Source of the DNA: an uncultured Clostridia bacterium
GTDB taxonomy: Bacteria; Bacillota; Peptococcia; Peptococcales; Peptococcaceae
NCBI GenBank assembly: GCA_944391285.1
Contig: CALXSY010000002.1
Span: 62,001 to 126,000 of the forward strand
Direction: 5' to 3'
DNA: 64,000 nucleotides
The notes under the pieces were generated by a model that worked only from the letters and a program-made list of their open reading frames with translations, did no database searches and had not been told where the DNA came from. Each line of letters opens with the position of its first letter. The first letter of the stretch is position 1. The position numbers were made by a program, and so were the translations under genes. Of the stretch, positions 34,332 through 39,366 are shown piece after piece.

Positions 34332-35714
34332 ATGCAGTATAATATACCTCGCATAGTAGTAGGAGCCGGTCAAGGTCGCTCAGGAAAGACAACCTTTACC
34401 TTAGGGCTTTTGCGGGCTTTATACAATCGTGGTTATCAGATGCAGCCATTTAAAAAAGGACCGGATTATATCGACCCCAGCTGGATGACCTTTGCCTCCG
34501 GCGGAGTAGAATGCCGCAATTTAGATGCTTTTATGATGGATAAAGAGCAGATTAAAAGCACCTTTATTAAACATAGCTTAAACAAGGACATAAGCATTGT
34601 TGAAGGGGCAATGGGATTATTTGACGGACTTGATATCGAGGGCAGCAACAGCACGGCGGAGATTGCTAATATGTTAGATGCGCCGATTATTCTGGTGGTT
34701 AATTGTCAAAGAATCACTCGGTCAGTGGCGGCTCTCATTAATGGCATTACAAGCTTTGACGAGCGCTTAAAGTTCGGCGGGGTGATATTGAATAATGTAG
34801 CCCGTGCCAGACATCAAAATATTATGACCGGGTCAATCGAAAAATATTGCAATATTGAAATTCTCGGCACTATCCCCAAATCCAGCGATATTGAAATACC
34901 CGACCGCCATTTAGGCTTGATTCCTGCCGGCGAGATGGAGAGTTTGCAAAAACGGGTGGATAAATTAGGCAGTTTGATCGGCGATAATGTCAATATCGAA
35001 AGAATTTTGGAGATTGCCAAAGCAGCTAAGCCATTAGAGGGCGAAGTAAAGAGTGCTCCGATTGTGGTAGAGGACAAAAAATGCCGGGTAGGTGTTTTAA
35101 GAGACCGGGCATTCAGCTTTTATTATCCGGAGAATATCGAGGCTTTGGAAGAAGCCGGAGCGGAGATAGTCTATATTGACTCCATGAAAGACAACCATTT
35201 GCCTGATATAGCAGGAATGTATATCGGCGGAGGGTTTCCGGAAGTGATGGCGGAAGAAATTTCTGCCAATAAGACATTGATGGCAGAAGTGAAAGCCAAA
35301 GCCGAGAAAGGCATGCCTATTTATGCTGAATGCGGAGGTTTGATGTATTTATGCAGGAATATTATCAATAATGATAGAAACTATTCTATGGTTGGCTTAT
35401 TTGACTGTGATGTGCAAATGGAGAAGAAGCCGCAGGGACATGGCTATGCTATTCAAGAGGCGTTAGAGGGACAGGTTTTCTTTGAAAAAGGAGAAACAAT
35501 CTTAGGTCACGAGTTTCACAATTCCCGCATCGTCAATTTAGCTGATGAGGTGAACTTTGCTTATCAAACGAAAAGAGGAAAAGGCATCAGGAATGGTTAT
35601 GACGGTTTGTGTTATAAGAATGTTTTAGCCTGCTATCATCACCTGCATGCAGCGTCGGTGGAAGATTGGGCGGATAATTTCGTAAAATTGGCTAATAAAT
35701 TCATAAAAAAATAA
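34332..35714 (+). CDS. dsrN: Cobyrinate a,c-diamide synthase family; probable siroheme amidase DsrN
   Basis: 460 residues. The N-terminal half is an ATP-binding amidoligase (P-loop GAGQGRSGKTTF near residue 12, KKGPDYIDPSWM, EGAMGLFDGL). The C-terminal half is a class I glutaminase with Cys334 in YAECGGLMYL, the HEFHNS segment and a final YHHLHA. This is the CbiA/CobB architecture. It lies directly upstream of ferredoxin-dsrAB and no cobalamin genes are in the window. Homologues in this position, DsrN, amidate siroheme to siroamide for sulfite reductase. The DsrN reading depends on context; CbiA for cobalamin is the alternative. Confidence 0.82.
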   Translation: MQYNIPRIVVGAGQGRSGKTTFTLGLLRALYNRGYQMQPFKKGPDYIDPSWMTFASGGVECRNLDAFMMDKEQIKSTFIKHSLNKDISIVEGAMGLFDGLDIEGSNSTAEIANMLDAPIILVVNCQRITRSVAALINGITSFDERLKFGGVILNNVARARHQNIMTGSIEKYCNIEILGTIPKSSDIEIPDRHLGLIPAGEMESLQKRVDKLGSLIGDNVNIERILEIAKAAKPLEGEVKSAPIVVEDKKCRVGVLRDRAFSFYYPENIEALEEAGAEIVYIDSMKDNHLPDIAGMYIGGGFPEVMAEEISANKTLMAEVKAKAEKGMPIYAECGGLMYLCRNIINNDRNYSMVGLFDCDVQMEKKPQGHGYAIQEALEGQVFFEKGETILGHEFHNSRIVNLADEVNFAYQTKRGKGIRNGYDGLCYKNVLACYHHLHAASVEDWADNFVKLANKFIKK

Positions 35715-35916: not shown

Positions 35917-36099
35917 ATGTATATGGTTTCTGTAGACGCAGATAAATGCGTAGGCTGCGGAGCTTGTGCTGCTGCTTGCCCTGGTTCCGTTTATACTATC
36001 GAAGACGGAAAAAGCGTAGTTGGCGAAAATGAGTGTATGGGTTGCTATTCCTGCACTGCTATTTGCCCGGCTGAAGCTATCACTATTAGCGAGTTTTAA
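35917..36099 (+). CDS. 2[4Fe-4S] ferredoxin
   Basis: 60 residues with two CxxCxxCxxxC(P) clusters: CVGCGACAAACP near residue 11 and CMGCYSCTAICP near residue 40. A small soluble electron carrier. Its position just before dsrA suggests that it feeds electrons to the sulfite reductase, or that it is a cluster-specific carrier. Confidence 0.93.
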   Translation: MYMVSVDADKCVGCGACAAACPGSVYTIEDGKSVVGENECMGCYSCTAICPAEAITISEF

Positions 36100-36150: not shown

Positions 36151-37374
36151 ATGAATTTGTCAAGCAAAGTTAGACCTATGATTGATGAATTAAAGAACGG
36201 CAAATGGCCTTCTTACATCAAAGAGATCGAAAAAAGTGCTGCTGACGGAAATGCTACCCATGCTTCTCAATGTACAGCATTGCTCGATTTGCTCGAAGAT
36301 TCCTTTAACGAAAAACGTCCTCACTGGAAACACGGCGGTATCGTTGGTGTTAGAAGTTACGGCGGCGGTGTAATCGGTCGTTATACTGATAATCCGGAAA
36401 AATATCCTGAGGTTACTGAGTTCCATACTTTACGTATCAATCAACCTTCCGGTTGGTTCTATAAATCCGATGATATCCGCACTCTCTGCGATATCTGGGA
36501 AAAACATGGTTCCGGTTTGACCAACTTCCACGGCGCTACCGGTGACATCGTATTCTTGGGAACTACTACCGAACATTTGCAACCTTGCTTCAATGATTTG
36601 TCCGAAGCTGGTTGGGACTTGGGTGGTTCCGGTTCTGACTTAAGAACTCCCAGCTGCTGCGTTGGTCCTGGTCGTTGCGAATACGCTTGCTTTGACAGCT
36701 TGGATTTGTGCTACAACTTAACTCAAACTTATCAAACTGAGTTGCACAGACCAATGTGGCCTTACAAATCCAAAATTAAAATTTCTGCTTGTCCTAACGA
36801 CTGCGTTGCTTCTCAGGCTCGTGCTGACATTTCCATCATTGGTAAATGGAGAGACGCTATCATTGTAGATCAAGCTGAAGTTGCTAAATATGCTGACGCA
36901 GGTTTAGATATTGAAAACTTAGTTTGCGGCTACTGCCCGACTGCTTGCTGCAGCTATGATGCAGAGAAAAAAGAAATTAACATTGATAATGCAAACTGCA
37001 CTAAATGCATGCACTGCATCAATGCTATGCCTAAAGCTTTGCATGTAGGTCAAGAAAAAGGTGCTACCATCATGCTCGGTGGTAAAGCTACTATCGTACA
37101 ATCCGCATTCCTCTCTTGGGTTATCGTTCCTTTCATGAAATTAGACAAAGAAGACGATTATCAAGAGTTGAAAGATTTCTTAGAGAAAGTTTGGGAATGG
37201 TGGGATGAGAACGCCAAAGTTCGTGAACGTCTCGGTGAGTTAATTTACAGAAAAGGTATGGCTGAATTCTTGAAAGCCGTTGAATTAGATCCAATTCCGC
37301 AGATGGTTAAACATCCGCGTGAAAACCCATACTACTTCTGGTATCCAGAAGATTTTAACGGAGGTGACAAATAA
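36151..37374 (+). CDS. dsrA: Dissimilatory sulfite reductase subunit alpha
   Basis: 407 residues, somewhat shorter than many DsrA. The siroheme/[4Fe-4S] cysteines are seen as [15 protein letters not shown] (about 168-182) and [19 protein letters not shown] (about 209-227). The ferredoxin domain follows with [12 protein letters not shown]; the [16 protein letters not shown] segment is characteristic. With DsrB it reduces sulfite in the cytoplasm, passing a sulfur intermediate to DsrC. C-ending Phe/Tyr codons are frequent, as expected for high expression. Ribosome site GGAGGTG; dsrB begins at the last base of its stop codon. Confidence 0.97.
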
Positions 37375-38447
37375 TGATCGCACAATTCGCTCCTACTGAT
37401 ATCGGACCTCCCCATTATTGGGACAAAATGCCTGAAATGTGCCAAAAGAACTACGGCAAATGGCAGTATCATGAGTATGAAAAAATCGGCGTTATGAAAC
37501 ACGTTGGTCCAGAAGGTGCTTTGTACACTGTACGTGTAGGTTCTCCTCGTTTATTGAGCACCGTAACCTTAAGATGGTTTGCTGAATTAGCAGACAAATA
37601 TTGTGATGGTCATTTGCGTTTCACCAGCCGTCATAACGTTGAGTTCTTGTTGGTTGATCATGCAAATATTGATCCATTAGTAGAAACTTTGGAAGCTGCT
37701 GGCTGGCCTGTTGGCGGTACCGGCAAATCCTTGAAAAACTTAATTCATACTCAAGGCTGGGTACACTGCCATTCCTCCGCTACTGATGCTTCCGGTACTG
37801 TTAAAGCAGTTATGGATGATCTCTATGAGTACTTCAAGAGAGATGATCTGCCGGCTAAATTGAAAATTTCTATGGCTTGCTGCTTGAATATGTGCGGTGC
37901 TGTACACTGCTCCGATATCGCATTTGTTGGTGTTCACAGAAAGATTCCTCGTGTAGACGATGCCGGTGTTGCTAACTCTTGCGAAATTCCAAATGTTGTT
38001 GCTTCCTGCCCGAATGCTGCTATCAGACCTAATCCGAAAGCTAAATCCGTTATCATCAACGAGGAGAAATGCATGTACTGCGGTAACTGCTTCTCTGTCT
38101 GCCCGTCCTTACCGATCGCAGACCCTGAAAACGATGGTATCGCTGTATTTGTTGGTGGTAAAGTTTCCACTACTCGTAAAGGTCCTGCATTCAGTAAGTT
38201 AGTAATTCCTTACATTCCTAACGAGCCTCCGAGATGGGACAGCTTAGTAAAAGCTATCAGAAACTTGGTTGAGGTTTGGGTAGAGAATGCTCGTCCGGGC
38301 GAAAGATATGGCGAATGGATTGAGAGAATCGGTTGGGAGAAATTCTTCGAGATGACTGGTTTAGAGTTCACCGATAAACACATCGACGACTTTACCTTCT
38401 CCGTAAAAACCTTCCGTACCAACGCTCAATTCAAATTCACCGAGTAA
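37374..38447 (+). CDS. dsrB: Dissimilatory sulfite reductase subunit beta
   Basis: 357 residues. Typical features are [40 protein letters not shown], the cofactor cysteines in [29 protein letters not shown], and a ferredoxin domain with [16 protein letters not shown]. DsrB carries the functional siroheme (siroamide) in A2B2 sulfite reductases. Start and stop with dsrA overlap as TAATG. Confidence 0.97.
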
Positions 38448-38494
38448 TTTGGTTTAAAGTGTGGTAAACTATTTTTACTAAGGTGGTGTTTAAA

Positions 38495-38701
38495 ATGGCT
38501 GAGTACACAAGAGAAGAATTAGAAGCTAAGATTTTGGAATTTTTAGCTCCGGAAGGAAAAAAAGCTAAAAATAAAGAAATCGCAACTGCTTTAGGCGTTT
38601 CTAAAAAGGAAATTGACTTAGCAGTAAACGAATTAGCCAAAGAGGGTAAGGTAGAATTCCTTTATTTGGGAACTTCTTACGTTACCTTGCCAAAGGCGTA
38701 A
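38495..38701 (+). CDS. dsrD: DsrD, sulfite reductase activator
   Basis: 68 residues from ATG 38495 with AAGGTGGTG upstream. Winged-helix-like sequence (LLAPEGKKAKNKEIATALGV is close to family pattern: EFLAPEGKKAKNKEIA, then KKEIDLAVNELAKEGKVEFL and TSYVTLP). DsrD has been shown in sulfate reducers to activate DsrAB allosterically rather than bind DNA. Its presence fits reductive, not oxidative, use of DsrAB. Confidence 0.92.
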   Translation: MAEYTREELEAKILEFLAPEGKKAKNKEIATALGVSKKEIDLAVNELAKEGKVEFLYLGTSYVTLPKA

Positions 38702-38713
38702 GAGATGTTGCTT

Positions 38714-38746
38714 GATGCTGTGCGGAGCAATGCTTCGCATAGTATT
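38714..38746 (+). other. Intercistronic hairpin between dsrD and the small ORF
   Basis: ATGCTGTGCGGAGCA and TGCTTCGCATAGTAT pair as an imperfect stem with a minimal loop and no T-tract. It looks like an mRNA processing or stability element rather than a terminator. Confidence 0.5.
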
Positions 38747-38761
38747 TAGGAGGGATGAAAA

Positions 38762-38962
38762 ATGTCATTGATGGACGACTGCATAGAGTTATTGGCATTT
38801 TGGGATGCATATGCCTATGAGATGAAAAATACTAAAGCCAGTGAGTATAAAATGGGCATTGGCGAAGGTATTGATCAGGCTGCCGAGATGCTGAGAACTT
38901 ATCTGGTTGAATATCCTGAGTTTGTTGATCCCAAAGTAGAATTAGACAAATTTAAAATGTGA
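38762..38962 (+). CDS. Unrecognised 66-residue protein within the dsr cluster
   Basis: Starts MSLMDDCIELLAFWDAYAYE with a strong AGGAGGGATG site, and sits between dsrD and dsrC with 12 bases to the next start. It is acidic and predicted alpha-helical, with one cysteine and the motif KMGIGEGIDQAAEML. I do not recognise the family. Position and ribosome site support a real gene expressed with dsrC. Confidence 0.75.
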   Translation: MSLMDDCIELLAFWDAYAYEMKNTKASEYKMGIGEGIDQAAEMLRTYLVEYPEFVDPKVELDKFKM

Positions 38963-38974
38963 GGTGCTTACAAA

Positions 38975-39292
38975 ATGCCAACAATTGAAGTTAATGGCCA
39001 AACTGTAGAGTTAGACGAAGACGGTTTTATCGTTGTATTAGACCAATGGAATGAAGACGTTGCTAGATATTTAGCAAAAGAAGAAGGTATTGATGAATTA
39101 ACCGAAGATCATTGGAAATTGATCAAATACTTGAAAGATTACTTTGCTGAGTACGGTATCGCTCCTATGATCCGTAAGATGACCAAACAATCCGGTTTCT
39201 CCTTAAAAGAAATCTATGATTTGTTCCCATCTGGTCCTGCTAAAGGAGCCTGCAAAGTTGCTGGCTTGCCAAAACCTACCGGTTGCGTCTGA
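38975..39292 (+). CDS. dsrC: DsrC / TusE-family sulfur carrier protein
   Basis: 105 residues. Opens TIEVNGQTVELDEDGF, has the DHWKLIKYLKDYF and GIAPMIRKMTK segments, and ends GACKVAGLPKPTGCV, which keeps both redox cysteines (CysB and the penultimate CysA). Both are needed for the trisulfide that DsrAB forms with sulfite, so this is a true DsrC rather than TusE. The trisulfide is normally reduced by DsrMKJOP, not in this window. Confidence 0.96.
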   Translation: MPTIEVNGQTVELDEDGFIVVLDQWNEDVARYLAKEEGIDELTEDHWKLIKYLKDYFAEYGIAPMIRKMTKQSGFSLKEIYDLFPSGPAKGACKVAGLPKPTGCV

Positions 39293-39333: not shown

Positions 39334-39366
39334 AAAACCGATAAGCTTCAGGCTTATCGGTTTTTA
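39334..39366 (+). terminator. Terminator of the dsr cluster
   Basis: Stem AAAACCGATAAGC / GCTTATCGGTTTT with a short loop and a T run. It is the first strong terminator after dsrN. Confidence 0.9.

Follow-up and report, generated by a model that had tools for sequence, protein, structure and literature searches.

A predicted helical-hairpin protein encoded directly after dsrD is very probably a component of the Dsr system in one DsrAB clade of Firmicutes

Introduction

What is the small gene between dsrD and dsrC in the dsr cluster of an uncultured Peptococcaceae bacterium (assembly GCA_944391285.1), and does its product belong to the sulfite-to-sulfide machinery? The gene, here called X (or the "SEYK protein"), lies in a stretch of 64,000 nucleotides (contig CALXSY010000002.1, positions 62,001 to 126,000; "the window"). 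An earlier note, made from the letters of this DNA, had suggested that X may be a new accessory factor for DsrC or DsrAB in Firmicutes. A literature search turned up no description of a gene in this position.

Results

X is a real gene in a dsr cluster

The genes of the cluster were arranged as dsrN(cbiA)-ferredoxin-dsrA-dsrB-dsrD-X-dsrC, with the following features:

34332..35714, + strand, a,c-diamide synthase of the dsrN/cbiA type, by homology for siroheme amidation
35917..36099, + strand, 2[4Fe-4S] ferredoxin, 60 aa
36151..37374, + strand, dsrA (TIGR02064, 534.5 bits)
37374..38447, + strand, dsrB (TIGR02066, 465.4 bits)
38483..38701, + strand, dsrD, start ATG at 38495 (68 aa), by homology a winged-helix DsrAB activator
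38714..38746, + strand, predicted RNA stem-loop of 15 bp between dsrD and X, no T-tract
38748..38753, + strand, Shine-Dalgarno sequence of X (AGGAGG), from sequence
38762..38962, + strand, X, 66 aa, ATG start, TGA stop
38961..38966, + strand, ribosome site of dsrC (GAGGTG), overlapping the X stop codon, from sequence
38975..39292, + strand, dsrC (TIGR03342 and PF04358), both C-terminal cysteines present (GACKVAGLPKPTGCV)
39334..39364, + strand, intrinsic terminator after dsrC, ending the operon

The flanking dsr genes were as the earlier note had named them, dsrA, dsrB and dsrC all passing curated cut-offs. DsrN functions in siroheme amidation (PMC10504309). The dsrD gene was identified by phmmer homology to DsrD of other clusters; against PF08679 its product scored 13.5 bits (cut-off 24.2). 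As DsrD of this lineage falls under the Pfam cut-off, pipelines may overlook dsrD and label such operons dsrD-less.

The 66-residue frame was confirmed on the + strand, a perfect AGGAGG 8 nt before its ATG bore out the claim of a strong ribosome site, and the X stop was indeed 12 bases from the dsrC ATG. A longer N-terminus was excluded by an in-frame TGA one codon upstream of the ATG. Overlap of the X stop with the dsrC ribosome site makes translational coupling probable. The final 12 nt of X (38948-38959, AAATTTAAAATG) were near-invariant as nucleotides in the family (8/10); lying just 5' of the dsrC ribosome site, they may be a translation enhancer, or else encode a conserved KFKM tail.

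The dN/dS of X was 0.023 in the closest pair, 0.05-0.17 in other pairs with unsaturated dS, and 0.28 in one more distant pair. A chance reading frame was ruled out by homologues in other genera and families, by purifying selection and by the conserved slot described below. X is thus a real gene under strong purifying selection.

X occupies one slot and is confined to dsrA-positive genomes

A first contig scan with the single X sequence as query gave no matches, and a scan with an X alignment gave 11 loci. The earlier note had proposed looking for homologues in the same slot of Firmicute dsr clusters, and the outcome was clearly positive: X directly followed dsrD in 20/20 in-operon loci, which came from three families of its own order (f1, f2, f3) and three elsewhere in the phylum (f44, f53, f79). 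The gene 3' of X was dsrC in 15 loci, a ferredoxin gene and then dsrC in three (L065, L069, L072) and dsrM in one (L063), while one locus (L068) ended with its contig. Since dsrD always adjoined X and the next gene varied, dsrD rather than dsrC is the constant neighbour.

By whole-genome tblastn and HMM searches, X was found in 10/13 genomes of the same family and 14/21 of the order; within the order, it was present in 14/15 dsrA-positive versus 0/6 dsrA-negative genomes. The lone dsrA-positive genome lacking it (G006) was 79%-complete and had only a 194-codon dsrA piece on a contig fragment. For the phylum, 299 evenly sampled Bacillota genomes were searched with an X profile made from the own order only (E < 1e-4), so that matches in families outside the order were a genuine prediction. 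There, dsrA was present in 41 genomes and X in 17, and all 17 X carriers had dsrA (hypergeometric P about 7e-17), as did 12/12 carriers beyond the order (P 2e-12); these P values overstate the independence of the genomes, which are related to one another. Among public relatives carrying X, most were Peptococcaceae bacteria, with several of animal-gut origin, and the rest were Clostridia or Clostridiaceae MAGs. Plasmids and phages searched for X gave no match.

X marks a single DsrAB clade

In a DsrAB tree of 46 rows (quick search, no bootstrap), the 18/18 clusters with X in the slot and complete dsrAB formed a single clade (SH-aLRT 100), and the X label required one change versus a shuffled mean of 14.5. 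Because these 18 loci form one fully supported clade, X was probably recruited once into the dsr operon of one DsrAB clade and then retained. Identities of X and DsrAB were correlated (Mantel r 0.82, 0/2000; 17 loci), as expected under joint inheritance. Co-divergence of DsrD with X was considered and dropped, the FLYxGTS motif being common to DsrD of X-bearing and X-less clusters.

X was absent from Moorella-, Desulfosporosinus-, Desulfotomaculum-type and other dsr clusters, and a universal Firmicute Dsr factor was rejected on this ground. A new accessory factor is still the best reading, as no known dsr protein explains X, but its extent had been drawn too widely: it belongs to one DsrAB clade and not to Firmicutes as a whole.

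Several Firmicute clusters (L126, L127, L129, L133) contained, alongside the canonical set, another dsrAB pair that had diverged strongly, together with a further short DsrC-like protein.

A hairpin between dsrD and X

The stem-loop after dsrD in the window was strong (z -6.0). Among X-bearing loci, the post-dsrD gap had z < -2 in 11 of 17; the control gaps reached this value in 1/12 cases after dsrN, 1/13 after the ferredoxin gene and 1/17 after dsrB. Besides the window, such hairpins were present in L051, L053-L055, L057-L059, L061, L063, L065 and L066, and among relatives the location was kept while the sequences were unrelated. Terminator prediction in the window did not call the 38714-38746 hairpin, because it has no T-tract, and Rfam gave no match to it; in Desulfotomaculum-type clusters, T-tracts were frequent in the hairpin after dsrD. 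The hairpin probably separates expression of dsrABD from that of X-dsrC, through processing or partial termination.

Predicted structure and conserved residues

AlphaFold predicted X as a two-helix hairpin (helices 3-23 and 28-48, mean pLDDT 88). E28, G32 and G36 were invariant in 24 members, Y29 and A40 were near-invariant, and K25 was nearly invariant. No conserved cysteine or histidine pair that could serve as cofactor ligands was found in the members. Searches of Pfam, NCBIfam and PHROGs gave nothing convincing; in the PDB, the best sequence match had E 0.21 and the best Foldseek match E 2.6, with generic hairpins only (e.g. Rop variants). X is a protein family that no database describes, attached to a known pathway.

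X is distinct from DsrD, DsrC and DsrT

The claim that X is unlike any recognised dsr protein held: it matched none in Pfam or NCBIfam, and DsrD, DsrC and DsrT were each excluded by test. X is not DsrD, having no PF08679 match, a predicted helical hairpin and a separate dsrD gene before it. Nor is it DsrC/TusE, as it has no PF04358 match and its tail is KFKM; dsrC is the next gene.

The gene dsrT often adjoins dsrM (PMC10504309), and in L063 X lay directly upstream of a dsrM-like gene, a frequent dsrT site. That X is DsrT in disguise is nevertheless hardly credible, since a separate RsbRD_N (PF14361) gene stood before dsrK in three genomes (G000, G057, G104):

L150 11251-11826, RsbRD_N (PF14361) gene in the DsrT position
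L147 11331-11885, RsbRD_N (PF14361) gene in the DsrT position
L149 9591-10142, RsbRD_N (PF14361) gene in the DsrT position

This protein has 183-191 aa, X has 66 aa and no Pfam match, and the own genome, L147 and L149 have both genes; the RsbRD_N gene is called DsrT here by its position. DsrT and X are alike as unexplained accessory genes of dsr operons. The RsbRD_N domain hints at kinship between the protein in this position and stressosome-type regulators.

Unlinked paralogues

SEYN-type paralogues of X were found outside the dsr operon in Desulfotomaculum-type sulfate reducers of families f69, f78 and f97:

L070 9946-10131, SEYN-type paralogue
L071 2128-2319, SEYN-type paralogue
L073 9892-10086, SEYN-type paralogue
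L074 9920-10153, SEYN-type paralogue
L075 9926-10123, SEYN-type paralogue

AlphaFold predicted for a distant member the same hairpin as for X, and the two types share an E-Y-x-x-G-x-x-x-G core and have so far been restricted to dsrA-positive genomes. They differ in location and in the N that replaces lysine after SEY. In f69 and f78 the paralogue had as its neighbour a conserved protein of ~115 aa; two members of it were scanned and neither matched Pfam. One genome (G196; L064 6663-6851 and 17951-18112) held both X types, neither in its dsr cluster, the SEYK-type immediately upstream of moeA. G196 was the sister row of the X clade in the DsrAB tree.

Metabolic setting

ATP sulfurylase was missing in the ten order members tested, the own genome included; the latter encoded dsrK-J-O-P-M, with the RsbRD_N protein at the DsrT site, plus an additional pair of dsrMK-like genes. 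Because ATP sulfurylase is absent and dsrK-J-O-P-M is present, we infer that the source organism, a gut-type Firmicute, is a sulfite (or organosulfonate) reducer. The X-bearing Firmicute lineage is best read as consisting mainly of sulfite reducers that lack ATP sulfurylase, whereas this enzyme was present in the genomes carrying unlinked SEYN relatives (G102 was left out of the test).

Discussion

X was conserved in its dsr-operon location and restricted to dsrAB-positive genomes, as would be expected of a Dsr accessory protein, and these patterns of gene order and occurrence make it very probable that X is a component of the Dsr system. What it does there is graded lower. At roughly even odds, X would be a cytoplasmic hairpin, recruited once and kept as an integral component of sulfite reduction, that serves as a DsrAB-docking regulatory subunit. 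Since a conserved cysteine/histidine pair is lacking and the invariant residues form a polar cap and a small-residue face, X would act through protein docking instead of catalysis. The polar cap (E28, present throughout, with K25 and Y29, present in nearly every member) would lead into the face G32-xxx-G36-xxx-A40, which could allow tight helix packing. The most likely partner would be the DsrAB complex beside DsrD, where X may be a small subunit additional to DsrD, with a regulatory or docking role, tuning DsrAB turnover or sulfur hand-over to DsrC.

DsrD is described as an allosteric activator of DsrAB in the passage of PMC10591310 that cites Ferreira 2022, and on that description it would be a precedent for a small, non-catalytic DsrAB subunit such as X. 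Both proteins are small and soluble, DsrD is non-catalytic and X probably is too, DsrD is encoded directly after dsrAB and X directly after dsrD, and every X-bearing cluster has the two genes next to each other. They share no sequence similarity, however, and DsrD is a winged helix (PF08679) whereas X is a predicted helical hairpin. Ferredoxin and DsrN are likewise accessory genes co-encoded in Firmicute dsr clusters, but their families are known and have cofactors or enzyme domains, and X has neither.

The order of genes could instead point to DsrC, with which X would be co-expressed and which, or whose trisulfide, it would escort between DsrAB and the membrane complex DsrMK(JOP). X is followed directly by dsrC in 15/20 loci, its stop codon overlaps the dsrC ribosome site, the hairpin after dsrD splits X-dsrC from dsrABD in most relatives, and in L063 dsrM comes directly after X. 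Yet a ferredoxin gene intervenes between X and dsrC in L065, L069 and L072, dsrC is ~2.5 kb from X in L063 while adjacency to dsrD is never broken, and DsrC of X-less clades works without X; we regard such an escort as unlikely. The same tight junction would also fit a translated spacer whose amino acids matter little and which mainly links translation of dsrC to the mRNA upstream, for the dsrC ribosome site overlaps the X stop and the last 12 nt (AAATTTAAAATG) are near-invariant (8/10). This is very improbable given a dN/dS of 0.02-0.17 in the closest pairs, three residues invariant over deeply diverged families, and retention of X even where the next gene is not dsrC.

Small helical proteins are often chaperones, and X is co-encoded with dsrN (siroheme amidation) and ferredoxin, so that X might assemble DsrAB, by inserting siroheme or [4Fe-4S] clusters or by holding the subunits during maturation. 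With no conserved cysteine or histidine in X, and with DsrAB maturing without X in X-less clades, an assembly role appears quite unlikely.

Two observations weigh against the docking-subunit reading. Many dsr clusters of Firmicutes function without X, so that DsrAB chemistry in itself does not require it. The paralogues of f69, f78 and f97, which lie outside the dsr operon, show that the family can act, or once acted, elsewhere. A more far-reaching reading, at a little under even odds, is that X would be an additional, undescribed regulatory or docking subunit of DsrAB, beside DsrD and DsrC, in one mostly sulfite-reducing Firmicute lineage, and that the SEYN relatives would provide the same function, unlinked, in Desulfotomaculum-type sulfate reducers.

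Dissimilatory sulfite reductase is central to the sulfur cycle and to sulfide production in the gut, and understanding of its control by small proteins is just starting, via DsrD. X is a ready marker for its DsrAB clade and, if the proposed role is true, its universal retention there would explain how the X-bearing DsrAB clade differs.
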